From Patiriisocius marinistellae (GTDB lineage: Bacteria > Bacteroidota > Bacteroidia > Flavobacteriales > Flavobacteriaceae): DNA of 64,000 bases. A model generated the notes under the pieces. It searched no databases. It was not told the origin of the DNA and saw only the letters and a program-made list of their open reading frames with translations. Below, in pieces: positions 5,892 to 61,238 of this stretch; the first letter of the stretch is position 1, and each line of letters starts with the position of its first letter. Position numbers and translations under genes: made by a program. Where the stretch lies: NCBI RefSeq assembly GCF_009014635.1, contig NZ_BKCF01000002.1, positions 124,001-188,000 of the forward strand. The letters are read 5' to 3'.

Positions 5892-6108
5892 AGTTTTAAG
5901 TTATGAGTTTTAGTTTTAAATAATACCTTTCTAATTTTAGATGTATTAATCTTGACTTTATTCTTAATGTTAAATTATTTTCTTCGGAAATATAAATTCC
6001 GTGGCACTAATTGTATTAATAAAATTCTGTATTATACTTCAATATTTTAAAAGTATAATTAAATAATAGCTACTATAAATAAAATGCTATATTTAATTAA
6101 AGCCTTGT

Positions 6109-6558
6109 TCAATGACCTGCTATTGTTTTATAAATTTTCTTTCCATTTATTAATTCTTGCATGGTGTTAGCTACTTTTTTAAAGGTGTAAAGTTCTTCTT
6201 CGCTAATGTGCTTTTTAACAGCTTCATCAAAACCGAGAACTACACCTTTTGAAAACTCACGCATTTCTATACCAAAATCAGTAAGATGTATTAATACACC
6301 CCGTCCGTCTTGTGGGTTGGGACGGCGTTCTATTAAACCTTGTTCTTCCATTTTCTTTAGCGTACGCGATAGGGAAGTAGCCTCCATGCCCATTTTAGGT
6401 CCTAATGCTGTAGAAGGAGTTCCACCCTCTGGATCAATGCTTATTAAGGCAAATCCAGTTGCCATAGTACTTTCTTTTCTTCCAGCTTCTTCATTGTACA
6501 TTTTTTGTACCGCCATCCATGTACTCCTTAATATATAGTCTATTGTTTTTTCTTTCAA
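6109..6558 (-). CDS. MarR-family transcriptional regulator
   Basis: A 149-residue winged-helix repressor. The recognition-helix region is ATSLSRTLKKMEEQGLIERR and the wing follows at DGRGVLIHLTDFG. The chosen start is a TTG at 6558: the usual N-terminal helix of this flavobacterial family (KTIDYILRSTWMAV) begins right there, and ATG appears only after it. It lies 217 bases upstream of the hydratase/dehydrogenase fusion on the same strand, which suggests it senses a fatty-acid-derived ligand and controls beta-oxidation genes. That role is inferred from context. Confidence 0.88.
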   Translation of the reverse strand: MKEKTIDYILRSTWMAVQKMYNEEAGRKESTMATGFALISIDPEGGTPSTALGPKMGMEATSLSRTLKKMEEQGLIERRPNPQDGRGVLIHLTDFGIEMREFSKGVVLGFDEAVKKHISEEELYTFKKVANTMQELINGKKIYKTIAGH

Positions 6559-6583
6559 AGCAGGTATTGATAATTAGGTATGT

Positions 6584-6591
6584 CAAATATA
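6584..6591 (-). promoter_or_regulatory. Candidate -7 box of the MarR-type regulator gene
   Basis: The minus strand reads TATATTTG, an exact match to the Bacteroidota TAnnTTTG box, 26 bases before the TTG start. No good TTG -33 element is seen at the usual distance. Confidence 0.45.
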
Positions 6592-6829
6592 ATCAAATTT
6601 ACTATGCGTGCATAATAAATTGTTCTTAAAAATTCAGATTAAAAGTATGTGACGTTTTTTGTGTTTTTATAGTTTATCAATTTTAAAATCTAAAATATTT
6701 ATCTAGAGTATTAATTCATATCTGTTTTAAAAGTAGGAATTGTCTTAACTCAGTTGTTAAATAACGTTAAACTTTTATTAAGCTTTTAAATGTGAGGTGA
6801 ATTACTTTAAATTACTACTAAATTGATCT

Positions 6830-7228
6830 TTGATAAAAATTTCAGAAAAAAATCTAAAAGATATGAAAGGGAATTCTAGAGGAAGTATTGCGTTTATTGT
6901 CGATAAATTAGTAAATAAAGGAAATTCGACAACTATCTATGATAATGCTGAAAGTACATATTTGAGCTATAACGGTATTGTAGAGCCAGAATCTATTGAC
7001 TTGTATGATTACGCTAATGGTTGTTACATTTCAGGAAGAAAGAGTGACGATATGTTTACGTTATTCCATTTTGGAGAAGGTAATCATATTGATTTAAAAA
7101 TTGATGGGAATAAATTTACTGGCTTTGATTATAGTTCTGACTCTTATTTTAAAGGAATTATAAAGGAAAGTTCAATTTCTGTATTTGATTATGGTGAAGG
7201 AACTGATTTTAATTATGCGACTTCATAA
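6830..7228 (+). CDS. Small orphan protein with tandem 20-residue repeats
   Basis: A 132-residue protein without signal peptide or recognised family. From residue 59 it is built of repeats with exact 20-residue spacing: aromatic-D/H-aromatic triplets at 59-61 (YDY), 79-81 (FHF), 99-101 (FDY) and 119-121 (FDY), each followed by a short polar/glycine segment and then beta-prone residues. A weaker copy starts at Y37. This period suggests a small beta-solenoid. The start is uncertain: TTG at 6830 gives the full frame, while ATG at 6863 (residue 12) is the first standard start. It stands alone between two minus-strand genes. Confidence 0.65.
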   Translation: MIKISEKNLKDMKGNSRGSIAFIVDKLVNKGNSTTIYDNAESTYLSYNGIVEPESIDLYDYANGCYISGRKSDDMFTLFHFGEGNHIDLKIDGNKFTGFDYSSDSYFKGIIKESSISVFDYGEGTDFNYATS

Positions 7229-7263
7229 TTGATACTAATTTGTAATTTTTTTTTTAAAAGCTT

Positions 7264-10199: not shown

Positions 10200-12602
10200 C
10201 TATTTTTTAATGATTTTAAAACTTTCGGAAGTATCTTCTGAGGTTAATTTCATTATATAAAGTCCACTTGAAAATTGACTGTAATCAAAGGTACTGGTTC
10301 CATTGTTATTTATTTCCGAAGCAACTAATTGACCTTGCAGATTATAAACTTCTATGGTATAATTTGACTTCGAAGTTGTAATATTTAAAATATCATTTAC
10401 AGGATTAGGGTAAATCCCGAAATTTGAAACTGTTATATCTTGAGTGTTTAAAGTAGCTTCGTTTACAATATTAAAGGTTAAATCATCAAAATAAAATCCA
10501 TCTTCTGTCGCTCCTTGATCTGTTCTTAATTGAAAGCGTGCTATAATAGTTTCGCCAATGTAGTCACTTAGTTCAATTTCTTCTAAAACCCAATCATTTT
10601 GACTCCCATCATAAAGGGGTTCTCCTGTAGGTTGGAAATTTCCTGAGCCAGCTTTTGTAAATTTTCCACATTGTGGAATCCAGTCATTTCCATTATTGGT
10701 TGAAATTTCAAACTGCGCATAATCAAAGCCACTTTCAATCGCAAATTTTGTGTAAAAAGTAACATTAGCTCCAGTAGCATTGGTTAAGTCAATTTGATTA
10801 CTTAGCGAGATAGTTTTATTTTGATTATTTGAATAATTTCCATTAGGGGAATCAGTGATTGAACTTGATGGAGATACGAATGTACTTGTTGTTACATCCC
10901 AGCCATTATTTGTAAAATTATCATTCACGCTATCACCCTCATCAGAAAAAATTGATGTTAGCGAACCAAAAATTTTAGTTACTAACACCTTTGAGTCAAA
11001 GATTCCATTATTTACAATAAGTTCATAAACTACAGGATCACCACTATTGACAGTGCCACCAAGCGTATATTGAACAGCACCATTTTGACTTGCTAAAAGT
11101 TCCATACCAGTAAAAATAACGGGGTTTCCTACGGCAACAATATTTGAGGTTATTGGATTAATACTAACTGTAAAATTACCATTGCCTTGTAGTCCAAGTC
11201 TTTGAATGTTGAAAGTTCCATTGTTTATAACGTTATCTCCAGTATATAATGGTGCGGTGTCTTTTGCGCTAGCAAAATTATTTATCATTTTTGATGCTGT
11301 TAAATTGAGAAACATCATTCCTTTTGAAAGTGGTATAATTTGATTTGATGGAGGCCAAAAAGATGGGCCTATCTCTGGAGTATAAGCATAGATTTTATCG
11401 TGTGTTCCAACTGTCCCATACATAAAATCATCACTATCGCCAGCTGCTGCGTATAACTCAGAGGATAAAATATTATTGAACCCATTTCTTGAAACAAGTT
11501 CATCACCTAAAGCTGTTAGAAGTCCTTCATCTTCTGAAACTTCATTGAGTGTATATCCAAAAGGTCTTAATAATAAATTGCCATGACTATGATTGTTGAA
11601 AGCCATCACAAAATCATGTTGCTCTACAAACCATTTCATCGCTTGATTTTCAACTTCACTAAAAGGAAGGTTACCTCTATAAATATCTGAACCTGTATCT
11701 CCTGAAGAACCATCACCACCCCACATTCCATTGTTAGGATTGCCATCTATAAAATATTCATAATTACGGTTATTATCCACGCCAAATGTTCCGTCGCCAT
11801 TAGGCTTTCTGTTTTTTCTCCAAAAACCACCACCATTAGGATCTGTTTTTTCATTGTATAAATAGCCATCAGGGTTAACTACTGGCACAAAATATAACTC
11901 ACTATTATTAACAATGCTTTGTACTTCTAGATCTGTATCATAATTCTCAAGTAAATACCACATATAAAAAATTAACTGATGTAACGAAATAGGCTCACGT
12001 GCATGATGAATGGCTGAGTATAGAATTTGTGGTTCACTTTCATTTGTGTCTGGATTATCACTAATCTTCACCCATTGAATTCCATTGCCGCCTATGGACG
12101 GAGTTACAGAGTTGTCTGGTTGTCCTTCAGTTAGAAAAGTACTAATATTTGATTTTGCAGAAATTAAATTAGGATATAATGCACGCATCTGGTCAAGATT
12201 ATCTAACACCTCTTGATAGGTTAAATACCCACCCATTGAGCCTGATTGAAAATTAACAGGCGTAGGATAATCTTCACCATCATTTTGACAATCTGCGTTT
12301 CTGTAAGGTTCTTTTAAAGCATTTTTTCTTAAAAAGTCTCCTTTTAGATCATCAATTAAAACATCGACTTGAAAGCCATTAATTTTAGCAATTTGTAACT
12401 CTGTTTCAGAAAATTCTGATATAATAAAAAATCCTTTTTTGTGAACTCCATGATCAACAGGAAGCCCTATTGACTCTAAACGCGCTAAGTCTTCTATTTG
12501 AGAGTAAGAAATTTTTGCTCGCTGGTATTTTTCTTGTTTTTGCTGTTGTGAAAATACCATAGTGGTAATACATAAAAAGGCAATAAATAATATCTTTTTC
12601 AT
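10200..12602 (-). CDS. Secreted M14 zinc carboxypeptidase with type IX sorting domain
   Basis: An 800-residue exported peptidase. The start at 12602 gives a clean signal peptide (MKKILFIAFLCITTMVFS); the frame extends 14 codons further up but loses this. The M14 domain (about residues 115-450) shows the zinc motif HHAREP, the substrate-binding RKNRKP and NNRNYE segments, NNHSHG for the third zinc ligand, and TPEIG with the catalytic glutamate. A jelly-roll domain as in immune-inhibitor-A-like proteases follows (about 560-720, FEISTNNG ... FYFDDL). The last 75 residues are a type A C-terminal sorting domain (YPNPVND ... SGLYIMKL). It should be cell-surface attached or released for extracellular protein breakdown. 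Confidence 0.93.
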   Translation of the reverse strand: MKKILFIAFLCITTMVFSQQQKQEKYQRAKISYSQIEDLARLESIGLPVDHGVHKKGFFIISEFSETELQIAKINGFQVDVLIDDLKGDFLRKNALKEPYRNADCQNDGEDYPTPVNFQSGSMGGYLTYQEVLDNLDQMRALYPNLISAKSNISTFLTEGQPDNSVTPSIGGNGIQWVKISDNPDTNESEPQILYSAIHHAREPISLHQLIFYMWYLLENYDTDLEVQSIVNNSELYFVPVVNPDGYLYNEKTDPNGGGFWRKNRKPNGDGTFGVDNNRNYEYFIDGNPNNGMWGGDGSSGDTGSDIYRGNLPFSEVENQAMKWFVEQHDFVMAFNNHSHGNLLLRPFGYTLNEVSEDEGLLTALGDELVSRNGFNNILSSELYAAAGDSDDFMYGTVGTHDKIYAYTPEIGPSFWPPSNQIIPLSKGMMFLNLTASKMINNFASAKDTAPLYTGDNVINNGTFNIQRLGLQGNGNFTVSINPITSNIVAVGNPVIFTGMELLASQNGAVQYTLGGTVNSGDPVVYELIVNNGIFDSKVLVTKIFGSLTSIFSDEGDSVNDNFTNNGWDVTTSTFVSPSSSITDSPNGNYSNNQNKTISLSNQIDLTNATGANVTFYTKFAIESGFDYAQFEISTNNGNDWIPQCGKFTKAGSGNFQPTGEPLYDGSQNDWVLEEIELSDYIGETIIARFQLRTDQGATEDGFYFDDLTFNIVNEATLNTQDITVSNFGIYPNPVNDILNITTSKSNYTIEVYNLQGQLVASEINNNGTSTFDYSQFSSGLYIMKLTSEDTSESFKIIKK

Positions 12603-12624
12603 AAATGGACTAGTTAAAAACAAG

Positions 12625-12664
12625 TAGTCCTCAAAGCTAAGCAAACCTTACACTTTGAGGACTA
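12625..12664 (-). terminator. Terminator of purL
   Basis: TAGTCCTCAAAG (12625-12636) and CTTTGAGGACTA (12653-12664) form a 12-base perfect stem with a 16-base loop, 26 bases after the purL stop. The downstream T tract on the minus strand is weak. It also lies in the leader of the carboxypeptidase gene. Confidence 0.7.
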
Positions 12665-12690: not shown

Positions 12691-15600
12691 TTACTTAGTC
12701 TCTAACCATTTTTTAGCATTTATAAAACCTTCAAGCCAAGGAGAAACTTCATCTTTACGATCACTTGGGTAAAAACCCCAATTCCATGGGAACGTTGAAC
12801 GTTCTAAGTGTGGCATCATTACTAAATGTCTTCCAGTAACATCAGTAAACATTGCTGTGTTAAAGTCACTTCCGTTAGGGTTTGCTGGAAATCCTTCATG
12901 CCCGTACTTACCTACAATATTATATTTATTCTCTTTCTGCGGAAATGAGAATTTACCTTCACCGTGTGCTGCCCATATACCTAATGTACTTCCTGCTAAG
13001 CTAGAAAGCATCACCGAATTATTTTCTTGAATTTTAACCGACGTAAAAGAACACTCAAATTTACCACTATCATTATATAGCATTTTTGGTTTCTCTAAAT
13101 CATCTGGTGTTAATAGACCTAGCTCTACAAAAAGTTGGCATCCATTACATACACCTAGTGAAAGCGTATCATCTTTTGCAAAGAAATTTTTCAAAGCCTT
13201 GTTTGCTTTTTCATTGTATAGAAAAGCACCAGCCCAACCTTTTGCACTCCCTAGGACATCACTATTAGAAAACCCACCCACAGCGGCTATAAATTTAATA
13301 TCCTCAAGTGTTTCGCGGCCGCTAATCAAATCTGTCATGTGGACATCTTTGACATCAAAACCTGCTAGATACATCGCATTAGCCATTTCGCGCTCACTAT
13401 TACTTCCTTTTTCTCTTATAATAGCTGCTTTAATTCTAGGTTTGCTAGTATCAATCACAGGGAGTTTTCCGCTGAAATGTGCTGGAAATTTAAATTCTAA
13501 CGGTTGTTTTTTATAATTACCAAAACGAGCTTCGGCTTCTTTACCACTTTGTTTTTTGTCAAATAAGTAAGATGTTTTATACCAAGTGTCTCTCATTGCT
13601 GAAACGGAGAAGTCAAAATCTTCTGTGCCATTTTTGATTTTAACAGTATCACTTTCCGTTACAGCCCCTATTTTATGAAATGTAATTCCAGCTTTAGAAA
13701 GTGAAGTTTCTAAAATTTTATCTTCGGTGGGTTGTAAAACGATTCCGCAGTTTTCAGCAAACAACAATTTAATAGTATCTTTTTCTGAAATTTCAGACAA
13801 GTCATATATAGCACCAAGATTAACATCGGCGAAGCACATTTCTAATAATGTAGTTATTAATCCCCCTGAAGCAACGTCATGTCCCGCGCTAATATTTCCG
13901 AAGGAAATTAACTCTTGTATTGTATTAAAAACAGTTTTTACATATGCAGCACTTTTTACTGTTGGTGCTTCATTACCAATGCTATTTTGTACTTGTCCAA
14001 ATGAAGAACCACCCAGCTTAAAATCGTCTTGCGAAATGTTGATATAGTAAATACTACCCTTGTCTTTTTGAAGTACTGGCTCAACTACATTTTTAATATT
14101 GTTACAATGACCCGCAGCCGTTATAATAACAGTTCCTGGAGAGATAACCTCTTCGTTTTTGTATTTCTGCTTCATAGAAAGTGAATCCTTTCCAGTAGGT
14201 ACATTTATTCCAAGTTCTATTGAAAAATCACTAATAGCTTCTACGGCTTTGTACAAACGTGCATCTTCGCCTTCATTGTTGCAAGGCCACATCCAGTTAG
14301 CCGATAGTGAAATACTTTTTAATCCATCTTTTAATGGTGCCCAAATGATATTTGTAAGCGACTCTGTAATTGAATTTCTAGAGCCTGCAACAGGATCAAT
14401 AAGTCCAGAAATAGGGGAGTGTCCTATACTTGTTGCAACCCCTTCCTTTCCGTTATAATCTAATGCCATTACACCGCAATTATTAAGTGGTAATTGTAAC
14501 GGCCCAGCACACTGTTGTTTTGCAACTTTACCGGTAACACAACGGTCTACCTTGTTAGTAAGCCAGTCTTTACAAGCAACAGCTTCTAATTGTAAAACTT
14601 GCTCAGTATAGTTTTTTAAATTTTTAATATCGTAGGTTGCATTATGGTAATTGCGAGCTACGGTTTTGTCATTCATGATTGTTTTTGGTGAGCTGCCAAA
14701 CATATCTGCGAGTTCAAAATCCATTGGTTTTTCACCAGTAGTTGCGCTTTCAAATGTAAACTTATGGTCGCCTGTAACATCACCCACCTCATAGATAGGA
14801 GAACGTTCACGGTCTGCAACACGTTTTAAAGTATCAATGTCTTTTTGAGCAATTACAAGTCCCATTCTTTCTTGCGACTCGTTACCAATAATCTCTTTTG
14901 CAGATAGAGTAGGGTCACCCACAGGCAGTTTATCTAAATTTATTTTTCCGCCAGTATCTTCAACTAGCTCACTTAAGCAGTTGAGGTGTCCCCCAGCACC
15001 ATGATCGTGAATTGAAACGATAGGGTTGTGGTCGCTTTCTACCATTCCTCTTACGGCATTTGCTGCTCTTTTTTGCATTTCTGGGTTAGAGCGTTGGATT
15101 GCGTTTAATTCTATTCCGCTTGAAAACTCACCAGTATCTGCGCTAGATACTGCAGCACCTCCCATACCTATTCTGTAATTTTCGCCTCCAAGAATGACAA
15201 CTTTATCTCCTTTTTGTGGTGTGTCTTTTAGTGCTTGATTTGCTTTTCCATATCCTATTCCACCCGCCATCATTATTACTTTGTCAAAACCAAGTTTTCT
15301 GGCATTATCAGCCTCTTGATGTTCAAAAGTTAATATAGAACCTGTGATTAAAGGTTGCCCAAATTTGTTTCCAAAATCTGAAGCTCCGTTACTGGCTTTT
15401 ATTAAAATATCTAGTGGGGTTTGATATAACCACTCACGTGCATCCATCGCTTTTTCCCAGGGTCTATTTTCTTCTAACCTTGAATAGCTAGTCATGTAAA
15501 CAGCAGTTCCTGCTAATGGAAGCGAACCTTTTCCGCCAGCAAGACGGTCTCTAATTTCACCACCGCTGCCTGTTGCAGCACCATTAAAGGGTTCAACGGT

Positions 15601-23203: not shown

Positions 23204-23692
23204 TTATTCGTTTATAATCGTGTATGTATCAATTGTTTCTAGAAGATATTCTTCTAGCGCAGTTTCTTGAAAAAGAACGTCTTCAATTTCAAGCATTTCT
23301 ATTTCATCATCAGATATTTCTGCAGATATATCATCAAGTGAAATGGAAATATTATCTGAGATTATATAATCCTCAATATTTGTCATTGCAATGGTCTCAA
23401 GCGATGCGTCATTTTGGTTATTTGTAAATGTGAAAATAACCGCAAGGCAAGCAGCAATTGAAACTCCTACTAATGCAAGTTTTCTTAAATTTATAACCTT
23501 AGGTTCAGTTTTTAAAATTTCCGAAGTAAAATTTGTTCCTTTAATAGATTCAAAATAAGTATTGGGTGCTTTAAATCCGGTCTGTGAAGGGATTTTTTCT
23601 AATTTTAATTTTAATGCAAGATCTTTCTCAAAGTTATTAAGATATCCTTCTGGCATTTTAAAACCGTGTGTATGTTGTTTGTTTTCTTGCAT
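23204..23692 (-). CDS. Putative anti-sigma factor with one membrane segment
   Basis: A 162-residue protein with a cytoplasmic N-terminal part (about residues 1-68), one membrane helix (LALVGVSIAACLAVIFTF, about 71-89) and a very acidic outer part rich in D, E and I. It lies 22 bases after the ECF sigma gene and before the Spy-like gene, the usual place for the cognate anti-sigma. No zinc anti-sigma motif is visible, so the function rests on position and topology. Confidence 0.7.
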   Translation of the reverse strand: MQENKQHTHGFKMPEGYLNNFEKDLALKLKLEKIPSQTGFKAPNTYFESIKGTNFTSEILKTEPKVINLRKLALVGVSIAACLAVIFTFTNNQNDASLETIAMTNIEDYIISDNISISLDDISAEISDDEIEMLEIEDVLFQETALEEYLLETIDTYTIINE

Positions 23693-28370: not shown

Positions 28371-28388
28371 TGGGTTGTTTTCGTGGTG

Positions 28389-28396
28389 CAAAAGTA
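28389..28396 (-). promoter_or_regulatory. -7 box of the phosphohexomutase gene
   Basis: The minus strand reads TACTTTTG, with a TTG 22 bases upstream (plus 28419-28421). The predicted transcript start near 28382 gives a leader of about 12 bases and decides the ATG at 28370. Confidence 0.55.
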
Positions 28397-28454
28397 GCAA
28401 TTTACATGATGATAGCATCAAGCGGATTAGAAAAAGGCAAGTCTTGATAGTAAG

Positions 28455-33910: not shown

Positions 33911-33923
33911 CCCACTTATTTGT

Positions 33924-33931
33924 CAAAAGTA
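33924..33931 (-). promoter_or_regulatory. -7 box of the peptide-binding lipoprotein gene, overlapping the mtaB start region
   Basis: The minus strand reads TACTTTTG. Its predicted transcript start is also near 33917, so it faces the mtaB promoter within 29 bases. Confidence 0.5.
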
Positions 33932-47076: not shown

Positions 47077-47871
47077 TTAATCCTTCACTGAAAAACGTCC
47101 AGTAGTCTTATCAAAATGAATTGTCTCAGGCGGGAAGAGTGCGTCAAATTTTCCTTTTTCAATAAGCTTACAAGGAGATCCAATGGCTAAATTATTAACA
47201 GTCATCACCATCATTGTATCTGCTAATTGAATGGCAATATCTATTTCATGAGTAGAAAAAAGAATTGTTTTTTGCTTTTCAACCGCAAGTTTTTTAAGCA
47301 ATTTTAATATATAAGCGCGATGGTATAAATCTAAATGCGTTGTAGGTTCATCAAGAATAATAATGGGTGTATCCTGCGCAAGTGCTCTAGCAATATATAC
47401 TCGTTGTAACTGCCCATCGCTAAGTTCGTAGCAGTTTTTGTTTTGGAGTTCAACTAAATCTGTAGCTTCAATCGCTTCTTCAATTTTAGTAAGATCTAGT
47501 GGTGTTAATGTCCCCATCCAACTTGTATGAGGTTGTCTTCCTAACGAGATTAGTTCTAAAACCGTTAAATTTTTAGACGCTGGAGCTTCTGTAAGAACCA
47601 AGCTTAATTGTGTGGCACGTTGTAGCGATGTGTTTTCTGAAATATCACTTCCATTTAAAATAATACTACCGTTTAAAGGTAATTGTGTTGCGGAAAGTGT
47701 TCTAAGAAGTGTAGACTTACCTATTCCGTTGCTTCCTACTAAACCAATAAGTTCTCCTTTTTTTAATTCAAAGTGTAAACCTTCGGCAATAATGGTATCT
47801 CCTTTTTTTGAGGGATACCCGATGCTTAAATTTTTAGCAATAAGAACATTATTTAAAATTTCCGAAGCCAT
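47077..47871 (-). CDS. btuD: ABC transporter ATPase, vitamin B12/siderophore type
   Basis: A 264-residue ATPase with Walker A GSNGIGKST, signature LSDGQLQRVYIARA (SDGQ instead of SGGQ) and Walker B IIILDEPTTHLD. It belongs to the FecE/BtuD family. Its ATG abuts the permease stop. The substrate is inferred from the neighbouring riboswitch-controlled receptor. Confidence 0.88.
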   Translation of the reverse strand: MASEILNNVLIAKNLSIGYPSKKGDTIIAEGLHFELKKGELIGLVGSNGIGKSTLLRTLSATQLPLNGSIILNGSDISENTSLQRATQLSLVLTEAPASKNLTVLELISLGRQPHTSWMGTLTPLDLTKIEEAIEATDLVELQNKNCYELSDGQLQRVYIARALAQDTPIIILDEPTTHLDLYHRAYILKLLKKLAVEKQKTILFSTHEIDIAIQLADTMMVMTVNNLAIGSPCKLIEKGKFDALFPPETIHFDKTTGRFSVKD

Positions 47872-48903
47872 CTAGAATAACAATTTACGTTTTTTTACCA
47901 ATAACCAAATCACAACTGGTGCACCAACAAGTGATGTAATTGCATTGATGGGCAAAAAGTATTCTGTGAAGGGTAACTGTGCAATGGTGTCACAAAGCAG
48001 CATTAAAATTGCGCCACAAATTAATACCGCTGGGATTAAAATTAAATGGTTTGAGGTTTTGATGAATTGGCGTGTTAAGTGCGGTACTGCAAGTCCAACA
48101 AATGCAATGGGACCTGCAAATGCTGTAATTCCTCCTGCAAGAATACTTGTTGCAACAATAATTATAAATGTATTTCTTTTAATTTTTAACCCCATACTTT
48201 TAGCGTAATTTTCTCCTAAAAGTAATGCGTTTAAAGCTTTTGCACTTACTAAACTAAGTAATATTCCAATGAAAAAACAAAGCGATAAAATTAAGATGCC
48301 TTCCCAGGATTGATTGCCTAAACTTCCAAATGACCAAAAAACAAATTGCTGTAATTGCTCGGCCGTACTAAAATAGGAGAGGACCGCAACCACTGCACTT
48401 GTAACGCTTCCAAACATAAGGCCAATGATTAAAATTGCCATCGTATCCTTAATCCTAAAAGTAACTGCGAGTACTGCAAGTAATACTAAAAAACTACCTA
48501 AGGCACTGGCAATTATCAAGCTCCAATCGTTTAAAAGTATCCCCCCCATAAATCCTCCCAATGCTCCAGCTCCTAAGATTAAAATTGCTACACCCAGACT
48601 TGCACCACTGCTTAACCCAAGAACAAAAGGCCCTGCGAGAGGGTTTCTAAATAAGGTTTGCATTAATAATCCCGAAACTGCCAAGCCACCACCAGCCATT
48701 ATTGCAGTTAAAGCTTTAGGAGTTCGATAATTTTGAATAATATAATTCCAAGATGATTTTTCTACTTCGCCACCAAAAATACTAGCCACTACATCACTTA
48801 ACGGAATTGCTACACTTCCTAAACTTATATTTATTAAGAAGCAAGCAAGAAGTACTAAAAGGAGTACTATGAAAAAGGGCGTATATCTTTTTTGAAGTAT
48901 CAT
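47872..48903 (-). CDS. btuC: ABC transporter permease, FecCD/BtuC family
   Basis: A 343-residue permease with about ten membrane helices. Family features include the GGGLAVSGLLMQTLFRNPLA and GPIAFVGLAVPHLTRQ segments, the latter the ATPase-contact loop. It overlaps the binding-protein gene by four bases (ATGA) and abuts the ATPase gene, so the three form one operon. Confidence 0.9.
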   Translation of the reverse strand: MILQKRYTPFFIVLLLVLLACFLINISLGSVAIPLSDVVASIFGGEVEKSSWNYIIQNYRTPKALTAIMAGGGLAVSGLLMQTLFRNPLAGPFVLGLSSGASLGVAILILGAGALGGFMGGILLNDWSLIIASALGSFLVLLAVLAVTFRIKDTMAILIIGLMFGSVTSAVVAVLSYFSTAEQLQQFVFWSFGSLGNQSWEGILILSLCFFIGILLSLVSAKALNALLLGENYAKSMGLKIKRNTFIIIVATSILAGGITAFAGPIAFVGLAVPHLTRQFIKTSNHLILIPAVLICGAILMLLCDTIAQLPFTEYFLPINAITSLVGAPVVIWLLVKKRKLLF

Positions 48904-50045
48904 TTAAGTTTTTCAAAAAAGAATAAATCATGATTTGGTAATAGAGACGGGTGCAGAATTTTGATAATATCTTTTAAAACAATGTCAGGTCTATTTGGAG
49001 CTAATTCATAATAAATCACACCGCCAGTTTCTCCTTTTTTTGTAGTAAAACTATATACATTATCTGTTTTAATTGGCTCAAAATAAGCATACGCGTTATT
49101 TGCATCCTTAAGTTGTTCTATAGAAGTAAATTGCCCTGGACCAATCCAGATATTTGCGTTTTGTCCTTTCTCTAAAACACTTTCAATATTAAGAGAAATG
49201 CTTCCTGTACCTTCACTTTCTTTCCATAAGTAATCACCATTTGCGTCATTAATAAATTGTGCTGCCCAGCTATCTCCCTGTGGCATGTACCAAACATCTT
49301 TAAACATAGCACCGCTTAAAACAGTGGGTTTTATTGAAGCTGCAGCTGCTGTTTTTTTTGCCGAAATATATTCGGTTTCAATTGTTTTAAAAATGCTATC
49401 GGCCTCTTTACTTTTATTATAAAGTGCTCCAAAAAATTTAATCCACTCAGCTTTTCCTAATGGATGCTTTTCTGTCCAGTCTGCATTAATAAGTGTGGGG
49501 ATACCTGTTTTTGCTATTGTTGAAAGTGTTGTGTTATTTCCGTCAACGGCAAAGCTTACAACGGCATCAGGGTTTAAATCGATTAAAACTTCGGTATTTA
49601 AAGATTCATTTTTCCCAACTTCCTTAATACTCCCTGCTGTTATAAGCTTCCTTGTCTTTATTGAGGATATGTAATTTAAATTAGGAAAACCAACAACTGT
49701 TTCTTCAGCGTTAAGCATTTCTAAAGATGGAATATGTGTTGTTGATGTTACAACGATTGACGTAATAGGAGTTTTTATAAAAGCATCATGTTGTGGTAAA
49801 TCTTCTTTTGGAATATCACTATCACTTAAAACATACGTGTACGTTTTATCAGCACCTGGCCATGGATTTGTGATGCTTATCGTTTTGTAGTTTTTAAATT
49901 CTGAAATTTTAAAACCTTCAGCATATTGTATTGAATTTTCCTTTAAATCTTTTTTGTTTTCTTCTGAAACGGAACTAGAGTCATTACTTTTTTTACAACC
50001 GATGATGCTAAGGGTAAGTAATAAAATTACAATTTTATGATACAT
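48900..50045 (-). CDS. btuF: ABC transporter substrate-binding lipoprotein, BtuF/FepB family
   Basis: A 381-residue lipoprotein with the lipobox LSIIGC. The two-lobed metal-chelate-binding fold is recognisable by ITSIVVTSTTHIPSLEMLNA at the first lobe and a long linker helix near ADSIFKTIETEY. It delivers cobalamin (or another corrinoid or siderophore) to the permease. It is divergent from a riboswitch-led TonB receptor gene; no riboswitch is seen on this strand. Confidence 0.86.
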   Translation of the reverse strand: MYHKIVILLLTLSIIGCKKSNDSSSVSEENKKDLKENSIQYAEGFKISEFKNYKTISITNPWPGADKTYTYVLSDSDIPKEDLPQHDAFIKTPITSIVVTSTTHIPSLEMLNAEETVVGFPNLNYISSIKTRKLITAGSIKEVGKNESLNTEVLIDLNPDAVVSFAVDGNNTTLSTIAKTGIPTLINADWTEKHPLGKAEWIKFFGALYNKSKEADSIFKTIETEYISAKKTAAAASIKPTVLSGAMFKDVWYMPQGDSWAAQFINDANGDYLWKESEGTGSISLNIESVLEKGQNANIWIGPGQFTSIEQLKDANNAYAYFEPIKTDNVYSFTTKKGETGGVIYYELAPNRPDIVLKDIIKILHPSLLPNHDLFFFEKLK

Positions 50046-50635: not shown

Positions 50636-52573
50636 ATGAAAAAATTATTAGTATCGGCATTTTTTGCCGCAGCAGCATTGACTGCACATGCACAACAAAA
50701 AGTAGAGCAATTAGACTCTGTTATGATTGACACAAAAGTGAGCATCCCACGTAAAAATAGTGGAAAAGTGGTTACTACAATCGACAATGAGATGATTTTA
50801 AGAAATCAAGGAAAATCTGTTGCACAATTGATTAATGAAGTTTCAGGAATTGAAATTAACGGTAGCCGTAGCAATGACGGGCAAAATCTGGGTTATTATG
50901 TACGTGGTGGTCGCAATCGCCAAGTACTAATTGTTATTGATGGAGTCCCAGTAAATGACCCTTCACAGATTGCTAATGATTATGATTTGCGCCTTGTGCC
51001 TACTGAGACTATTGAGCGTATTGAGATTATGAAAGGCGCCTCTAGTGTTCTATATGGTGCAAATGCTGGTACGGCAGTAATTAGTATTTCGACTTTAAAA
51101 GCAAGTAAGGAAAAAATTAGTGCAATTATAACATCATCTGTGGGGACTAATCGTTCGAGTGAAGATGATGATCTTGATACAGATTATAGTGTAGAGGAGT
51201 TTAACAATGCAGTTGCTGTGAGTGGAACTCTAGGAAAATGGTTTTATAATGCAAATTTTAGTAATCGTTACGTAGAAGGTTTATCTGCTGTTGCTGCGCC
51301 AGAAGATGCTACAGAGGCATTTGAAGCAGACGATTTTAATCAATTTGAAGGTCGTGTAAACTTAGGTTTTAACTTTTCAAAGAATGTAAGTTTAAGCCAG
51401 TTTTTTAGTTTCGGAAAACTGAAAGCAGATTTTGATAGCTTTAATTATACAGATGCTGCAAATAGAAATATTACAGATCAACTGCGTACAGGTGGACAAT
51501 TTACTTGGAAATATAAAAAAGGGATTTATGTATTTAACGATAATTTTACATGGATTGAAAGAGAAATTGAGTCAGACTTTCCTGTTAGGTATGACACTAG
51601 ATCCTATAACTTAGATAATTATTTAACATATGAGTTTACAGACAGTTTTACAGCCCTTGTAGGGTTAGGGCATAATAATAGTAGTTTTAAATCATTTTCA
51701 GTGCCTTTTGGAGAGACTGAGTTAGTGAAAGACTTAGATGATAGTGTTGCTGAGTTTACTATGTTTGATCCTTATGTAAATTTAACATATATCTCAAAAA
51801 TGGGCTTTCAAGCAACTGCTGGTGCTCGTATGAATATTCATAGTGAGTATGGTAGCCATTTAGTTTATAATGTAAATCCAAGTTATAATTTTGGTTTTGG
51901 AAAAAACAACCTAAAACTGCTAGCTTCATACAGTACCGCATACATTACTCCATCATTATTTCAACTGCATGATCCTTTGTATGGTAATTTAGAATTAGAA
52001 CCAGAAGAGAACACAACGATTGAAGGAGGTCTTGAATTTACAACAGAAAATAACATACGTTTGAGTGCATTGTATTTTACACGCGACGAAAAAAACTTTG
52101 TTGATTTTGTAACTGTTGATCCAGATAATTTTATATCTCAATATCAAAACATTGATGAAGAGTTTACAGCGAGTGGAGTAGAGGTGGAAGTTGCTGCGCC
52201 ACTAGGAAACAGATTTATGTTTACAGGAAATTACACAAACACTCAAGCAGATGAAAAGTTTGCATTACGTATCCCTGAGCACAAAGCAAATGCTTCATTA
52301 TCTTATAATGTGGCTAATAAAAGCTTTATCACAGCAAGCTACCAATTTACAGGAGAGCGTACAGATTCTTTTTTTAACAACGAAACTTTTGAGTCTGAGA
52401 ATGTAATTTTAGATAGCTTTGGGACATTGAATTTAACTGCTTCAACGCAACTGCTTCCTAATATGAAGGTTTTTGTAAATGTGAGTAATATATTAAACGA
52501 AGAATATGAAGAGATTTATAGATTTCAAACATTAGGTCGCAACGTACGCGTTGGATTTAACTTGAAGTTGTAG
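50636..52573 (+). CDS. btuB: TonB-dependent outer-membrane receptor for cobalamin (BtuB-like)
   Basis: A 645-residue receptor. Signal peptide MKKLLVSAFFAAAALTAHAQ, then a plug domain (about 30-145: VAQLINEVSGIEING, VRGGRNRQVLIVIDGVPVND, IEIMKGASSVLYGANAG) and a 22-strand barrel ending in an aromatic-rich C-terminus (VRVGFNLKL). There is no carboxypeptidase-like extension, so it is smaller than SusC-type receptors. The cobalamin riboswitch directly upstream and the divergent BtuCDF genes identify the likely ligand. Confidence 0.93.
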   Translation: MKKLLVSAFFAAAALTAHAQQKVEQLDSVMIDTKVSIPRKNSGKVVTTIDNEMILRNQGKSVAQLINEVSGIEINGSRSNDGQNLGYYVRGGRNRQVLIVIDGVPVNDPSQIANDYDLRLVPTETIERIEIMKGASSVLYGANAGTAVISISTLKASKEKISAIITSSVGTNRSSEDDDLDTDYSVEEFNNAVAVSGTLGKWFYNANFSNRYVEGLSAVAAPEDATEAFEADDFNQFEGRVNLGFNFSKNVSLSQFFSFGKLKADFDSFNYTDAANRNITDQLRTGGQFTWKYKKGIYVFNDNFTWIEREIESDFPVRYDTRSYNLDNYLTYEFTDSFTALVGLGHNNSSFKSFSVPFGETELVKDLDDSVAEFTMFDPYVNLTYISKMGFQATAGARMNIHSEYGSHLVYNVNPSYNFGFGKNNLKLLASYSTAYITPSLFQLHDPLYGNLELEPEENTTIEGGLEFTTENNIRLSALYFTRDEKNFVDFVTVDPDNFISQYQNIDEEFTASGVEVEVAAPLGNRFMFTGNYTNTQADEKFALRIPEHKANASLSYNVANKSFITASYQFTGERTDSFFNNETFESENVILDSFGTLNLTASTQLLPNMKVFVNVSNILNEEYEEIYRFQTLGRNVRVGFNLKL

Positions 52574-52575: not shown

Positions 52576-52669
52576 CTTCGGAAATATTAATTTATTAAAG
52601 CCCTTTTAGTCGATTTCTAAAAGGGCTTTTTTATTTGTAAAAGTGTGTGATGTTGTACCGTTTCCGAAG
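52576..52669. repeat. Inverted pair of the CTTCGGAAA motif around a terminator
   Basis: CTTCGGAAA at 52576-52584 starts two bases after the btuB stop and is followed by TATTAA; the inverted copy TTTCCGAAG is at 52661-52669. The btuB terminator sits between them. Confidence 0.55.
52597..52632 (+). terminator. Terminator of btuB
   Basis: AAAGCCCTTTTAG (52597-52609) pairs with CTAAAAGGGCTTT (52617-52629), followed by T. Confidence 0.92.
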
Positions 52670-53766: not shown

Positions 53767-55167
53767 TTATTCAATTCTATCAATTACCATAATTCCATCA
53801 ATAATACTTCCAGCATTACTATCGCTAACTTCCTCAAGTGGAGTAAAGTGTATAATAGGCCTATTTGTAAAGAAGATGTCATCTAGTGCTTCGGCAAGAA
53901 GAGGTTCGGTTATATCTCCAAGAATTCCCAAATTTGAGTAATTTTCTCTTATTGTAATATCTGGTGATAATCCATCAATATAATCTGTATTCCCCGCTGC
54001 ATTTGCTGTTTTGAAAACTAAAGGAAGCATTGCATAGGTATGATTAGGGTTTGCTTCTGAGCGACTAAAGGTTGGGGCAGGTGCATCATATAATAAAAAA
54101 GAAGCTTGAAATTTTCCAGTAGTATTGTCGCCTACTTGCACAACATCAATATAAGGAGCCAGGCCGTTGATAACAAGTTCACTAGCAGATGCAGAGCGCC
54201 CAGAAGTTAAAATATATACTTTAGTTAAATTTAAGCTATTTATTGCATCACCATTGCTAATAGTATTATTGAAAAGTCCTGGATTTGCGTAAGCATCTTG
54301 ACGGTCATCATTCCATTGCTCATTATAAAATATCTCGCCGTTAAATTGTCCTGTAATCATAGAAGATAAATCTGTTGCTGTTTCTACAGACCCTCCTCCG
54401 TTGTAACGCAAATCTAAAATTAACTTAGTTACCCCTTCGGCATTAAAATTTCCGAAGACAGCATTAAGTTCTGGATCAAAGTCACGGTTAAATTGGTTAT
54501 ACATAATGTATCCCACTTTTTCACCTTCAATGGTATAGGTACGTTCTAAATAAATAGGGTTTTCTGTGTATTGTGTTTTTGTTAATAGAACAGTTTCTCC
54601 TGTGGGTAAAATATTTGTACCATCATACGTTGCAAGTCCAATCTCGTAACTGTCAGGATCAAGAAGACGGTTAAAATTATTTTCATCTAATTGTTGTCCA
54701 TTTACAGTATTAAAAACATCACCTCTCTGTATTCCTTTTGCCTCTGCGTCTGTATTAGGAAGCACGTAACGCACATAACCAAAAATATTTCCACTATCAT
54801 CTGGATAAAAAACTAAACCATATTCCATCCCATTATTAAGCGTTATTCCACTTAATTCGTTTTCTAAATCCACATAATTGTCGACAAGAATACTAAAACG
54901 GTCTTGGTCAGATTTTAAAAAATCAAAAATTTCCTCAGGACTTTCAAAACTACTTATAAATGCATTTTTTGCAGTTTCATCAGCAAAGGCATCATTAGCA
55001 AGTTGTGGCGTATCTGCCTTATATAAGTAGAAAAAATTAAGTCCACGGTATATAAAATCGTTTATTGAAGTAGTGGAAGCCGGATTTAAATTATCATCAA
55101 GGTCTTCAAAACAGCTTACAAATAGCGTGAGTAGTGCGAGAATGGGGAGATAAAGTTTCTTTTTCAT
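53767..55167 (-). CDS. S41 family peptidase, lipoprotein
   Basis: A 466-residue lipoprotein protease (lipobox FVSCF). A cap domain lies at 25-110, a PDZ domain at about 130-210 (YVLPNTDAEAKGIQRGDVFN), and the tail-specific protease core after it: ITKLILDLRYNGGGSVETA and the catalytic serine in SGRSASASELV, with GDNTTGK following. It probably trims misfolded envelope proteins. It is preceded by the hairpin leader shared with the Spy-like gene and lies divergent to an ECF sigma gene. Confidence 0.9.
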   Translation of the reverse strand: MKKKLYLPILALLTLFVSCFEDLDDNLNPASTTSINDFIYRGLNFFYLYKADTPQLANDAFADETAKNAFISSFESPEEIFDFLKSDQDRFSILVDNYVDLENELSGITLNNGMEYGLVFYPDDSGNIFGYVRYVLPNTDAEAKGIQRGDVFNTVNGQQLDENNFNRLLDPDSYEIGLATYDGTNILPTGETVLLTKTQYTENPIYLERTYTIEGEKVGYIMYNQFNRDFDPELNAVFGNFNAEGVTKLILDLRYNGGGSVETATDLSSMITGQFNGEIFYNEQWNDDRQDAYANPGLFNNTISNGDAINSLNLTKVYILTSGRSASASELVINGLAPYIDVVQVGDNTTGKFQASFLLYDAPAPTFSRSEANPNHTYAMLPLVFKTANAAGNTDYIDGLSPDITIRENYSNLGILGDITEPLLAEALDDIFFTNRPIIHFTPLEEVSDSNAGSIIDGIMVIDRIE

Positions 55168-55194: not shown

Positions 55195-55444
55195 ATTTAG
55201 TATCAGTTTTTCTAAGAATATATTAATAGTATATAAACCTTAAAATTACTTACAATATTGCAGTCTTGGAAATATACGCTTTAGAAAAGTATAAAAATTA
55301 TTTAAAATGAATAAATTAATGTTTACTTCGGAAATATTAATCAAATTAAAATTTTGGTGTAACAAAAAATAGTCTCATTCGTCACAATTATAAGAAGCCG
55401 TAAAAGATGGCTTTTTAAAAGACACTAACCAAGTCAAAAAAAAA
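55195..55444. other. Intergenic region between divergent S41 and ECF genes
   Basis: No gene is seen. It contains one CTTCGGAAA motif (55326-55334, followed by TATTAA) and a small terminator-like hairpin AAGCC/GGCTT with a T run (55395-55416) ahead of the sigma gene, which could act as an attenuator. Confidence 0.4.
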
Positions 55445-57759: not shown

Positions 57760-57762
57760 ATA

Positions 57763-59106
57763 TTAAATCCCAGTATAATTTGAAGGTGTAATTACCCGCA
57801 TTTCTGCCTTTATTTCTTCGCTAATATCTAGCGTTTCAATAAAATCTGCAATAGATTTTTTACTTATAGCCTCATTCGTTCTTGTAAGCCCTTTCAAAGC
57901 TTCATAAGGATTAGGATATGCTTCTCTTCTCAAAATTGTTTGTAAAGCCTCTGCAACTACAGCCCAGTTTTTTTCTAAATCTTCGGCAAACTTAGACTCG
58001 TTTAATAATAATTTATTTAACCCTTTTAAAGTTGATTGAAAACCAATAAGGGTGTGTCCAATAGGCACTCCTACATTTCTTAAAACAGTACTATCTGTCA
58101 AGTCACGTTGTAATCTGCTTATAGGTAATTTTGAAGATAGATGTTCAAAAACAGCATTAGCAATCCCTAAATTTCCTTCGCTATTTTCAAAATCGATAGG
58201 GTTTACTTTATGTGGCATTGCACTTGATCCTATTTCTCCTTTTTTAATTTTTTGCTTAAAATAATCCATTGATACATACGTCCAAATGTCTCTGTCAAGA
58301 TCAATAATTATGGTGTTGATTCTTTTTAAACAATCAAATAAGGCAGCCATGTGGTCATAGTGTTCAATCTGAGTAGTAGGGAAGGAATGATGTAGCCCTA
58401 ATGTATTTTGTACAAAATTTTGACCAAACGCACGCCAATCAACCTGTGGATACGCAACATGATGTGCATTAAAATTACCAGTAGCACCACCAAATTTCGC
58501 CGCACTTTTTATATCATTCAACAAATCAAACTGTTCTTTTAAACGAACTACAAAAACTTCAATCTCTTTCCCTAAACGAGTAGGTGAAGCAGGTTGTCCA
58601 TGAGTTCTTGCAAGCATAGGGATGTCTGCCCACTCATTAGCCAGCTCGTGTAATTTATCGCTAAGCTCCATAAATAAAGGAACATAACTAGCATTCATTG
58701 CATCCTTTAAAGACAACGGAATTGCAGTATTATTAATGTCTTGAGAAGTCAAGCCAAAATGTATAAACTCCTTATACTTCTCTAAATTTAAAGCATCAAA
58801 GCGTTCCTTGATAAAATATTCCACCGCTTTTACATCGTGGTTGGTCACCTTTTCTGTGTCTTTTATTTTTTGAGCATCTTCAGTCGAAAACTCAAGATAT
58901 AAATCTCTTAACTTCGGAAATAAAGAAACATCAAAACCTTTGAGTTGCGGCAATGGTAATTCTACCAGCGAAATAAAGTATTCCACTTCTACTTGAACTC
59001 TGTATTTAATAAGCGCTTCTTCAGAAAAAAACGGAATTAATGATGAAGTTTTTGAGGCATATCTGCCATCGATTGGTGAAATTGCTTGTAATGCTTGACG
59101 TGACAT
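57763..59106 (-). CDS. purB: Adenylosuccinate lyase
   Basis: Cleaves fumarate from SAICAR and adenylosuccinate in purine synthesis. 447 residues. The fumarase/ASL signature GSSAMPHKVNPIDFEN contains the catalytic serine loop; the histidine regions LTSQDINNTA and ARTHGQPASPT are present. It is monocistronic. A hairpin with T run just downstream (57725-57753) can end it too. Confidence 0.96.
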   Translation of the reverse strand: MSRQALQAISPIDGRYASKTSSLIPFFSEEALIKYRVQVEVEYFISLVELPLPQLKGFDVSLFPKLRDLYLEFSTEDAQKIKDTEKVTNHDVKAVEYFIKERFDALNLEKYKEFIHFGLTSQDINNTAIPLSLKDAMNASYVPLFMELSDKLHELANEWADIPMLARTHGQPASPTRLGKEIEVFVVRLKEQFDLLNDIKSAAKFGGATGNFNAHHVAYPQVDWRAFGQNFVQNTLGLHHSFPTTQIEHYDHMAALFDCLKRINTIIIDLDRDIWTYVSMDYFKQKIKKGEIGSSAMPHKVNPIDFENSEGNLGIANAVFEHLSSKLPISRLQRDLTDSTVLRNVGVPIGHTLIGFQSTLKGLNKLLLNESKFAEDLEKNWAVVAEALQTILRREAYPNPYEALKGLTRTNEAISKKSIADFIETLDISEEIKAEMRVITPSNYTGI

Positions 59107-59231: not shown

Positions 59232-59325
59232 CAAACAAAACATGTGGCTACTATCGATTCCACATAGCTAACAATGTAAAATTACATGGCTTGTGTTTTG
59301 TTGACAATACCCAATACTGGTTATT

Positions 59326-59904
59326 TTACAGGGAACTTCTGTGTTTTTTAATAGCAATAAGTGCTTTAGAGCCTATGGATTTATACCCCGCGCTATTGGT
59401 GTTAATATTTTGCTCAATAATCACTTTCAATTCTGGATGAATCCAGTCATATTCTTTGCCTAATAAAAATAAAGATTTAATGGCGAAAGCCTGTGTAGCA
59501 ACTTTTTTTTCTGAAATGAGCCAATCAAAACAACATTCCACGAGCTGCTCTCTGTATTCACCTCGGAAATGTAACAACAGTGAAGCTTCTTTCTTTTTAT
59601 AAAACCTTTCAGTAAGTAACCAACAAATTTTAGAAAAAGGCCTTAATGCTTGCTCACGATATATATAAGGTAACTTTTCAAAAAACTTTTCAAAATGCGG
59701 ATATAATAATGTTACATTTTCTAAACATACAAATTCTAATATCCAAGCTGCTCTAAACGAAATTTCTTCATCAACTTGAAAACAAAATTTTAAAAGCTCA
59801 GGAAAATTTTCAGGGTTTTCTAAAACCCAATTAGCAAGATCAAGTCGTGTCTTCCTATATGCTTTAGTATATTGTAATTTATACTCTAAGGTTTCAAAAG
59901 CCAT
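59326..59904 (-). CDS. Helical-repeat protein of unknown function
   Basis: A 192-residue all-helical soluble protein with HEAT-like pattern: FRAAWILEFVCLENVTLLYP, REQALRPFSKICWLLTERFY and TQAFAIKSLFLLGKEYDW. It has no catalytic motif. Its start abuts the sirtuin stop, so it probably works with it; relatives are sometimes wrongly called adenylosuccinate lyase. Confidence 0.75.
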   Translation of the reverse strand: MAFETLEYKLQYTKAYRKTRLDLANWVLENPENFPELLKFCFQVDEEISFRAAWILEFVCLENVTLLYPHFEKFFEKLPYIYREQALRPFSKICWLLTERFYKKKEASLLLHFRGEYREQLVECCFDWLISEKKVATQAFAIKSLFLLGKEYDWIHPELKVIIEQNINTNSAGYKSIGSKALIAIKKHRSSL

Positions 59905-60585
59905 TTATTTTATTTCTTTAATTGCCTCTATGACTTTAGGTACTCCAGTTGAAGCTTTCTCTGCAATTATAGTTATCCTATTACTATTATCTATTGATGG
60001 GTTGGGGTCTACAAAAAATACTGGAATATTTTCTGGTGCGTACTGCATTAAACCCGCAGCAGGATATACTTGCATTGATGTGCCTATTATTAAAACAATA
60101 TCTGTCTTTGCTATTATTTCAACTGCAGTTTCAATAAGTGGTACTGCCTCACCAAACCAAACAATATGAGGTCTCATTTGAAAACCATTTTCACATACAT
60201 CTCCCAGGAGTATGTCTGTAGTACAATCTATCACAGAATCTTCTTTATACGTGCTTCTAGATTTTAATAATTCGCCATGCAAATGAATAACTTTTGTGCT
60301 TCCTGCACGCTCGTGTAAATCATCAACATTTTGAGTAATTATTGTTACGTCATGTTCTTTTTCTAAAGATGCTAAAGCTAGGTGTGCGGCATTTGGTAAA
60401 ACTTCTAATAATTGTTTTCTTCTTTGATTGTAAAAGTCAAGTACAAGCTCTGGATTTGAACTAAAGCCTTGAGGAGAGGCAACCTCCATTACATTATGTC
60501 CCTCCCACAATCCATTACTGTCTCTAAAAGTTTTGAGTCCGCTTTCGGCACTTACTCCTGCTCCAGTTAGTACGGTTATTTTCAT
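59905..60585 (-). CDS. cobB: NAD-dependent sirtuin deacylase (class III)
   Basis: A 226-residue Sir2 enzyme. NAD loop GAGVSAESG at 8-16, catalytic H103 in HLHGEL, TQNVDDLHERAG, VWFGEAVP and IGTSMQVYPAAG. Y52 and R55 (DFYNQRR) correspond to the residues that make SIRT5/CobB prefer succinyl and malonyl groups. Only two cysteines (C121 and C131) are found where four usually bind zinc, so the zinc site is probably reduced or absent. Confidence 0.92.
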   Translation of the reverse strand: MKITVLTGAGVSAESGLKTFRDSNGLWEGHNVMEVASPQGFSSNPELVLDFYNQRRKQLLEVLPNAAHLALASLEKEHDVTIITQNVDDLHERAGSTKVIHLHGELLKSRSTYKEDSVIDCTTDILLGDVCENGFQMRPHIVWFGEAVPLIETAVEIIAKTDIVLIIGTSMQVYPAAGLMQYAPENIPVFFVDPNPSIDNSNRITIIAEKASTGVPKVIEAIKEIK

Positions 60586-60674
60586 ATGGTGAGTTTATTG
60601 TCTATATAGTATTTGATATTACACAACCTTAAGTTGAGAGCAGTAAAAGCTATGCGTAAACTGCTATAATTTAA

Positions 60675-61148
60675 TCATCTATGATGATATGGTTCGTTTT
60701 TTAAAATGGTAAAACCGCGATATAATTGTTCAATAAAAAATAACCGTACCATTTGATGGGAAAAGGTCATTGCTGATAACGAGATTTTTCCATTTGCTCT
60801 TGCATAAATGTCGTCACTAAAACCGTAAGGACCACCTATAACAAACACAAGGTTTTTGAGGCCGCTATTCATTTTTTTTTGGAGAAAATCTGCAAATTTT
60901 TCGCTAGTATATGTTTTACCTTTTTCGTCAAGAATTATTAGTGTATCGCTCGTTTGTAATTTTTTTAGGATTTCGTCGCCTTCAGCAATTTTTTGTTGTG
61001 CTTCGCTACGATTTTTTGCTTTTTTAATATCTGGAATAACCTCAAATGAAAAATTTACATAATGATTTAATCTTTTTTTATAAGTTTCGGTCAAAGCAAT
61101 GAGTTGCTTGTTATCTGTTTTGCCAATTGCGAGCAGGGTAATTTTCAT
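60675..61148 (-). CDS. rlmH: 23S rRNA pseudouridine-1915 N3-methyltransferase
   Basis: A 157-residue SPOUT-class enzyme: MKITLLAIGKTDNKQL at the start, LDEKGKTYTSEKFADFL, the knot motif VIGGPYGFSDDIY and the C-terminal SLSAMTFSHQMVRLFFIEQL ending in YHHR. Full length, with an ATG at 61148. Confidence 0.96.
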   Translation of the reverse strand: MKITLLAIGKTDNKQLIALTETYKKRLNHYVNFSFEVIPDIKKAKNRSEAQQKIAEGDEILKKLQTSDTLIILDEKGKTYTSEKFADFLQKKMNSGLKNLVFVIGGPYGFSDDIYARANGKISLSAMTFSHQMVRLFFIEQLYRGFTILKNEPYHHR

Positions 61149-61192
61149 AATGCAGTTTAATTTGAGTATAAAAAAAAGTAATACTCAGGAGG

Positions 61193-61238
61193 TTTTTACT
61201 TCGGAAATTTCTATTGTTTAATATTTCCGAAGTAAAAA
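61193..61238. repeat. Perfect 16-base inverted repeat of the CTTCGGAAA motif
   Basis: TTTTTACTTCGGAAAT (61193-61208) is mirrored by ATTTCCGAAGTAAAAA (61223-61238) with a 14-base spacer. It lies in the divergent promoter region of rlmH and nadC, so it is not a terminator for either. Confidence 0.7.

Follow-up and report, generated by a model that had tools for sequence, protein, structure and literature searches.

Why does a single nine-letter word, CTTCGGAAA, recur throughout a stretch of flavobacterial DNA in which chance would place it less than once? The stretch comprises positions 124,001 to 188,000 of contig NZ_BKCF01000002.1 of Patiriisocius marinistellae, and is termed the window here (64,000 nucleotides, its full length). 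A first-pass annotation counted 18 exact copies, 8 in plus and 10 in minus orientation, and the count is correct; the expected mean is 0.47, and 18 copies were reached in none of 100 dinucleotide shuffles. The 10-letter form of the word, CTTCGGAAAT, with the core CTTCGGAA, is most likely a DNA uptake sequence of the Bacteroidota, a reading that draws on its genomic anatomy and to which we give a probability of about 0.65.

The word is not peculiar to the window. The source genome (label G000; 3,338,299 bp in 30 contigs, two of which are termed C1 and C2 below; contig order is not established) holds 967 copies of CTTCGGAAA, 499 forward and 468 reverse, and 42 copies of the reversed control word (18 forward, 24 reverse). 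The annotation had proposed comparison with a third-order Markov model, and the count is far above it: in a 1.66-Mb sample, CTTCGGAAA occurs 517 times vs 11.5 predicted, and CTTCGGAAAT 440 times vs 3.3. They are the first-ranked 9-mer and the first-ranked 10-mer among words with at least 30 copies in this sample. Fifth-order predictions are 155.6 and 59.3, respectively, and are high because the motif itself inflates the model.

Extended, the motif reads approximately TTTnCTTCGGAAATnTnAA, with AT tracts added at about +22 and +42. In the window, 17 of the 18 copies of CTTCGGAAA continue to CTTCGGAAAT. The annotation's statement that many copies extend to a longer form was generous, as the 16-mer ACTTCGGAAATATTAA is present in three of the 18 and CTTCGGAAATATTAA in five. 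The flanks of 375 copies (C1:1-1.2 Mb) show T at positions -6, -3 and -2 before the core and TnTnA after it, and AT tracts near +11, +19 to +27 and +37 to +43. These tracts are on one side only and are clearest in intergenic copies. Single-letter changes of CTTCGGAAAT are over-represented chiefly at position 9 and at positions 2 (T to A or G), 4 (G to T) and 6 (A to C); the excess is smaller at positions 1 (T to C, 7 vs 1.0) and 8 (A to G, 6 vs 1.2), and little or none at positions 0, 3, 5 and 7. The 8-mer again tolerates change at positions 2 and 4 in Ulvibacter litoralis and in genome G021, and position 6 is intolerant in U. litoralis. The tolerance of variants therefore points to a core, TTC-N-GAA, that is nearly palindromic, with its direction set by the flanks. 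A hairpin with a UUCG tetraloop (TTTC-TTCG-GAAA) was considered and dropped, as position -1 is not a conserved T and loop position 4 accepts other letters.

Copies in the source genome also face one another. Among pairs 15-300 bp apart in the 1.66-Mb sample, 68 are convergent, 9 divergent and 17 tandem, where 11.4, 11.4 and 22.8 are expected; the facing bias is absent in three control words, one of which has very few pairs. At 15-45 bp there are 15 pairs in the +- order vs 3 in the -+ order. Partners with one mismatch behave similarly at 15-300 bp (36 convergent vs 8 divergent, about 12 expected of each). AT tracts point into intergenic DNA in 80 of 128 intergenic copies, and the facing pairs might be thought a mere result of this direction. 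That explanation fails, as the preference holds inside open reading frames (ORFs) too: at 100-300 bp, 19 convergent, 1 divergent and 5 tandem.

Facing pairs were also counted in other motif-rich genomes (440 sites in 1.23 Mb). At 45-200 bp there are 27 convergent, 2 divergent and 18 tandem pairs, with 8.1, 8.1 and 16.2 expected. No convergent excess is seen in these genomes at 15-45 bp (1/0/8, in the same order) or at 200-300 bp (8/12/12), and U. litoralis has 0 convergent, 0 divergent and 5 tandem pairs at 45-200 bp. The G095 sample contains apparent repeats, and its 8 convergent pairs are perhaps not independent; without it the count is 19 convergent vs 2 divergent at 45-200 bp. The pool of named 23-kb loci numbers 15 and leaves out L025, L038, L051 and L054 (genome ratios 2.3-2.7); L021, which overlaps another stretch, and L010, which lies inside the G209 stretch, were likewise left out of the pair count. 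No literature on a convergent orientation of uptake sequences was found in the open-licence full text of PubMed Central (PMC).

A second enriched word, TTTCTGAAA or TTCTGAAAT, is found in C1 and C2 (e.g. L089-L108) and resembles the motif with altered letters. TTCTGAAAT occurs 352 times vs 39.5 by the third-order model, and TTTCTGAAA is without facing-pair bias, both in the 1.66-Mb sample. These words may be related to the motif, or may be a degenerate form of it.

The motif favours intergenic DNA. With ORFs called mechanically as a longest-ORF set, 128 of the 375 copies in C1:1-1.2 Mb are outside ORFs, in 9.5% of the DNA, a 3.6-fold enrichment, and 247 are inside; 4 of 21 copies of the reversed control word are outside. 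Coding copies use six frame/strand classes (C1:1-400 kb). The annotation's count of nine window copies in coding regions, in different frames, holds, and these nine span three such classes. TCG codons inside the motif number 59 of 1325 in the ORFs of C1:1-1.2 Mb. The position of copies within genes shows a weak bias by quintile (sense 31, 31, 28, 28, 17; antisense 20, 15, 24, 17, 23), and an intragenic quintile bias has been described by van Passel (PMC2346458).

The 18 window copies are given below, one per line. Sixteen of the 18 start positions in the annotation were right, and the two others, one on each strand, are marked.

5982 to 5990, plus strand: motif copy, intergenic (first placed at 5992)
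10313 to 10321, minus strand: motif copy in ORF 10200-12644
13895 to 13903, minus strand: motif copy in purL, in a variable stretch where orthologues have other residues and no indels
21624 to 21632, plus strand: motif copy in ORF 21575-22615
23518 to 23526, minus strand: motif copy in ORF 23204-23692
26846 to 26854, minus strand: motif copy in ORF 26655-28421 (first placed at 26848)
31847 to 31855, plus strand: motif copy, intergenic, directly past ORF 30669-31844
33538 to 33546, minus strand: motif copy in ORF 32256-33926
38551 to 38559, plus strand: motif copy, intergenic, left partner of a convergent pair with 38614
38614 to 38622, minus strand: motif copy, intergenic, right partner of the pair with 38551
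47859 to 47867, minus strand: motif copy in ORF 47077-47871, close to the ORF start
52576 to 52584, plus strand: motif copy, intergenic, directly past ORF 50636-52573, left partner of a convergent pair with 52661
52661 to 52669, minus strand: motif copy, intergenic, right partner of the pair with 52576
54449 to 54457, minus strand: motif copy in ORF 53767-55167
55326 to 55334, plus strand: motif copy, intergenic
58912 to 58920, plus strand: motif copy in ORF 57763-59106, antisense
61199 to 61207, plus strand: motif copy, intergenic, left partner of a tight convergent pair (25 bp) with 61224
61224 to 61232, minus strand: motif copy, intergenic, right partner of the tight pair with 61199

The sole Rfam match in the window is a cobalamin riboswitch (RF00174, 50325-50523, 92.9 bits), located upstream of the TonB-receptor-like ORF 50636-52573. 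Judged by eye, the ORFs at 47077-50045 have the look of a cobalamin-type ABC importer.

The longest stretches of C1 that lack the core are a 24-kb segment, the ribosomal-protein operons and an Rhs-like cluster beside comEC. By eye, the 24-kb segment (L170/L171, C1:1063190-1087380, GC 0.36) contains a putative integrase and metal-efflux-like genes, and perhaps is a recently acquired island. The cluster close to comEC (L166/L167, C1:987733-1003932) is a core-free run of Rhs-like repeated ORFs, also judged by eye.

How widely is the word shared among relatives? Within the genus, CTTCGGAAAT is high in five of 11 genomes (833, 605, 474, 345 and 239 copies), and the six others (1.7-2.1 Mb, 77-90% complete) have 6 to 34 copies; its reversed control numbers 9 to 21 across the 11. 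The core is below its reversed control in the small-genome congeners. In 19 of 199 Flavobacteriaceae genomes, CTTCGGAA is more than twice as frequent as its reversed control, with the highest counts in G021 (2187/322), U. litoralis (2099/257), G046 (1495/187), G016 (1255/298) and G095 (1228/221), followed by G107 (1167/339), G078 (1018/224), the source genome (1010/118), G034 (999/214), G177 (934/202) and G001 (865/120). In most of the 199 it is about equal to the control or scarcer. Of 49 named genomes, the word is above control in Aequorivita, Marixanthomonas, Gramella sp. AN32, Zunongwangia and Salegentibacter, and falls below it in Polaribacter, Tenacibaculum and Cellulophaga. A quickly built PurL tree of 50 rows requires 10 or more changes of the rich state (ratio >2, 24 rows), compared with a shuffled mean of 17.0; the state is clustered but labile.

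Among the relatives sampled, the core or a word overlapping it is the first-ranked 8-mer in G209, Aequorivita vladivostokensis, UBA3611, U. litoralis, G177 and G021, and is not first-ranked in the G052 and G095 samples. (G209, an uncultured Ulvibacter, is apparently the same as congener G001, as the counts are identical.) In pooled Aequorivita loci the k-mer ranking is swamped by sequence common to the loci. A motif-poor pool of 86 kb (five named and five DUF5689 loci) shows no excess, with 4 copies of CTTCGGAA vs 7 of the reversed word. The 3' extension varies, being AAT in the source genome and G209 and weakly A or G elsewhere. The core is thus common to several genera with differing extensions, i.e. 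there are dialects around a shared core.

The spread of such a word by biased uptake and recombination has been proposed for Haemophilus and Neisseria. In P. marinistellae, machinery at the cell surface would bind tagged DNA in preference to other DNA and in this way lead to uptake and recombination of the cell's own kind of DNA, and this bias may have spread the word through the genome. We infer natural competence of the source organism, to which its genes point, and uptake that favours the word. ComEC and DprA are present, as is a pair consisting of a DUF5689 lipoprotein and an outer-membrane barrel (C1:235784-240096). Besides ComEC, DprA, ComF and RecA, transformation in Riemerella needs four further proteins, which include a DUF5689 protein and, adjacent to it, a predicted outer-membrane protein (PMC8459023); by domains and gene order, the pair in the source genome is likely the counterpart of the Riemerella pair. 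The barrel has a strong match in all 16 motif-rich genomes searched (54-100% identity; partial in G005). In 14 genomes without DUF5689 the barrel match is weak in seven and missing in seven, and none of the 14 is motif-rich.

Two further features of this machinery can be mentioned. In G001 and G009 (L231, L230) the domain is matched twice in the main DUF5689 protein (742-745 aa frame); it is matched once in the source genome, in G002 and in those five motif-poor congeners that have a match. About 2 kb past the DUF5689-linked barrel is another, distant barrel that has plug and TonB-receptor domains (L101:1938-4607, C1:241938-244607), and a similar second weak barrel match occurs in many of the genomes searched.

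The type IV pilus (T4P) platform protein PilC/T2SSF (PF00482) is absent from the source genome, where other pilus parts were not searched; it is found in none of 13 motif-rich genomes and in one of 36 genomes overall. With PilC absent, the reader of the word would not be a minor pilin, unlike that of the Neisseriaceae and Pasteurellaceae, and the best candidate would be the DUF5689 protein with its barrel. Perhaps this is a third, independently evolved uptake language, in the Bacteroidota, with a barrel-plus-lipoprotein receptor (DUF5689 and a TonB-receptor-like barrel) and no pilus, although this is put forward tentatively and as a distinctly speculative extension. The receptor might act as a dimer with two-fold symmetry that grips a facing pair on a single DNA molecule, with SusCD-type importers as an analogy. 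Such a dimer would account for the near-palindrome of the core as well as for convergent pairs as much as 300 bp apart.

In the passages cited from PMC12616744, the Neisseriaceae and Pasteurellaceae are the only families known to have uptake sequences. No Bacteroidota uptake sequence was found described among the papers listed from open-licence PMC full text, where CTTCGGAAA used as a search string gave no title on the subject among the matches listed. If the uptake reading is correct, this third case, in another phylum and without a pilus, would mean that such signals arise again and again in evolution and have no fixed tie to the pilus. It would also provide a defined DNA ligand for the poorly understood transformation machinery of flavobacteria, and motif-rich marine flavobacteria should then take up DNA bearing the word more readily.

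Several observations weigh against an uptake function. The absence of PilC is one. The AT tracts are clear only in the source genome, weaker in G209 and not evident in the other genera sampled. Convergent pairing extends to 300 bp in the source genome, and the passages cited from PMC1852404 give no bias for the Pasteurellaceae past some 30 nt. DUF5689 is found in 185 of the 199 family genomes. The motif-poor congeners have the barrel in six of six (one partial), ComEC in six of six and DUF5689 in five of six, and of six other motif-poor genomes searched, five have a strong barrel match (56-65% identity) and the sixth a match of 39%. The machinery thus does not explain which genomes are rich in the word. 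Conversely, the motif-rich G005 (59% complete) has neither ComEC nor DUF5689 above the cut-off.

Of the candidates listed in the first-pass annotation, uptake has gained from the genomic anatomy, recombination signals and mobile-repeat debris are rejected, and a protein-binding or chromosome-organising site is left as the main rival. Here a global DNA-binding or nucleoid-associated protein, probably a dimer, would recognize TTC-N-GAA at about 1000 positions and serve to fold or silence the chromosome; the AT tracts on one side would bend the DNA, and the proteins bound at two facing copies could form a bridge across a short loop. The near-palindromic core with its partly symmetric tolerance is in keeping with this, as are the facing pairs, which occur inside ORFs as well. 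So is the spacing of copies, which is more even than chance (variance/mean 0.68-0.78; coefficient of variation 0.82 vs a null mean of 0.91, with 1.4% of 500 nulls as low). An even spread counts equally for an uptake sequence, as do balanced strands free of replication polarity. However, C1:1-1.2 Mb shows no polarity of the copies and no obvious gradient. Most of the 199 family genomes have the core no more often than its reversed control, and six of the 11 genomes of the genus have the 10-mer at control level. In our judgement so patchy a distribution would be unusual for a housekeeping chromosome protein. A nucleoid protein explains the patchiness poorly, and we consider it unlikely.

Far less probable is a role in transcription termination or as RNA hairpins, in which the stems of inverted pairs would end or stabilize transcripts. 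The 1.66-Mb sample does contain 16 convergent pairs less than 45 bp apart that can form stem-loops, but most copies are single and the majority are inside ORFs. The tight pairs are mostly T-rich before the stem and A-rich after it, the reverse of an intrinsic terminator, which has a GC stem followed by a T run; a plain terminator fails on these flanks. In addition, Rfam recognizes nothing in the window other than the riboswitch.

Remains of a short mobile repeat, such as a miniature inverted-repeat transposable element (MITE), a repetitive extragenic palindrome (REP) or a bacterial interspersed mosaic element (BIME), are very improbable, although inverted pairs are frequent both between and within genes. 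When the interiors of 47 facing pairs were compared by blastn, the alignments were short and mostly of the motif arms, with no evident shared sequence beyond the arms among the matches listed, and conservation ends at the motif plus composition-like flanks. The reading thus fails on alignment, and the copy at 13895, in purL, also speaks against it. Here the source genome encodes ISFGNISA, and the residues differ in 49 other genomes, flanked by identical conserved ends. The stretch aligns gap-free in the 50 proteins, with no indel in the motif columns; this copy was built by substitutions, several of them non-synonymous, and not by insertion. Tracing of coding copies through orthologues covers the purL copy alone. 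The PurL of the source genome is 82% identical to the PurL of an uncultured Flavobacteriaceae metagenome-assembled genome and of an uncultured Ulvibacter. The annotation had also proposed that conservation of the window copies be checked; two of the 18 could be aligned across species by blastn, and neither is conserved.

Strand-guiding signals, i.e. Chi (RecBCD/AddAB), FtsK-orienting polar sequences (KOPS) or replication-polar motifs, share the high copy number but can be dismissed almost entirely on polarity, as neither side of the GC-skew sign change near 0.5 Mb of C1, taken as origin or terminus, shows an orientation bias (86+/81- and 114+/94-), nor does the genome as a whole, with the contigs unordered.

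Comparison with known systems shows a mixture of shared and distinct properties. The uptake signal sequence (USS) of Pasteurellaceae likewise has a core of 9-10 bp, copies in the hundreds to thousands that are shared almost equally between the strands, AT-rich tracts some two helical turns downstream and a +- excess in close pairs (PMC12616744; PMC1852404). It differs in that its sequence is unrelated, the phylum is another, PilC was not found here and the flanks of the present pairs have the wrong order for a terminator; the reach of +- pairing also differs, 300 bp in the source genome vs about 30 nt in Pasteurellaceae (PMC1852404). The +- excess in close pairs is reported for both the DNA uptake sequence (DUS) of Neisseriaceae and the USS, and the Pasteurellaceae case is explained by terminators (PMC1852404). 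N. meningitidis Z2491 has 226 +- vs 5 -+ pairs of DUS (PMC1852404). The DUS resembles the present motif in its family-wide core, genus dialects and high density (PMC3630211), but is unrelated in sequence, and no T4P route was found for the motif, whose uptake function we infer. Riemerella has no established uptake word in the passages cited from PMC7965970, where its commonest raw k-mers are AT-rich and their function is left open. In its machinery Riemerella resembles the source genome: a member of the Flavobacteriia with T4P-free transformation, it has ComEC, DprA, a DUF5689 protein and an outer-membrane barrel (PMC8459023), and R. columbina favours its own DNA (PMC7965970).

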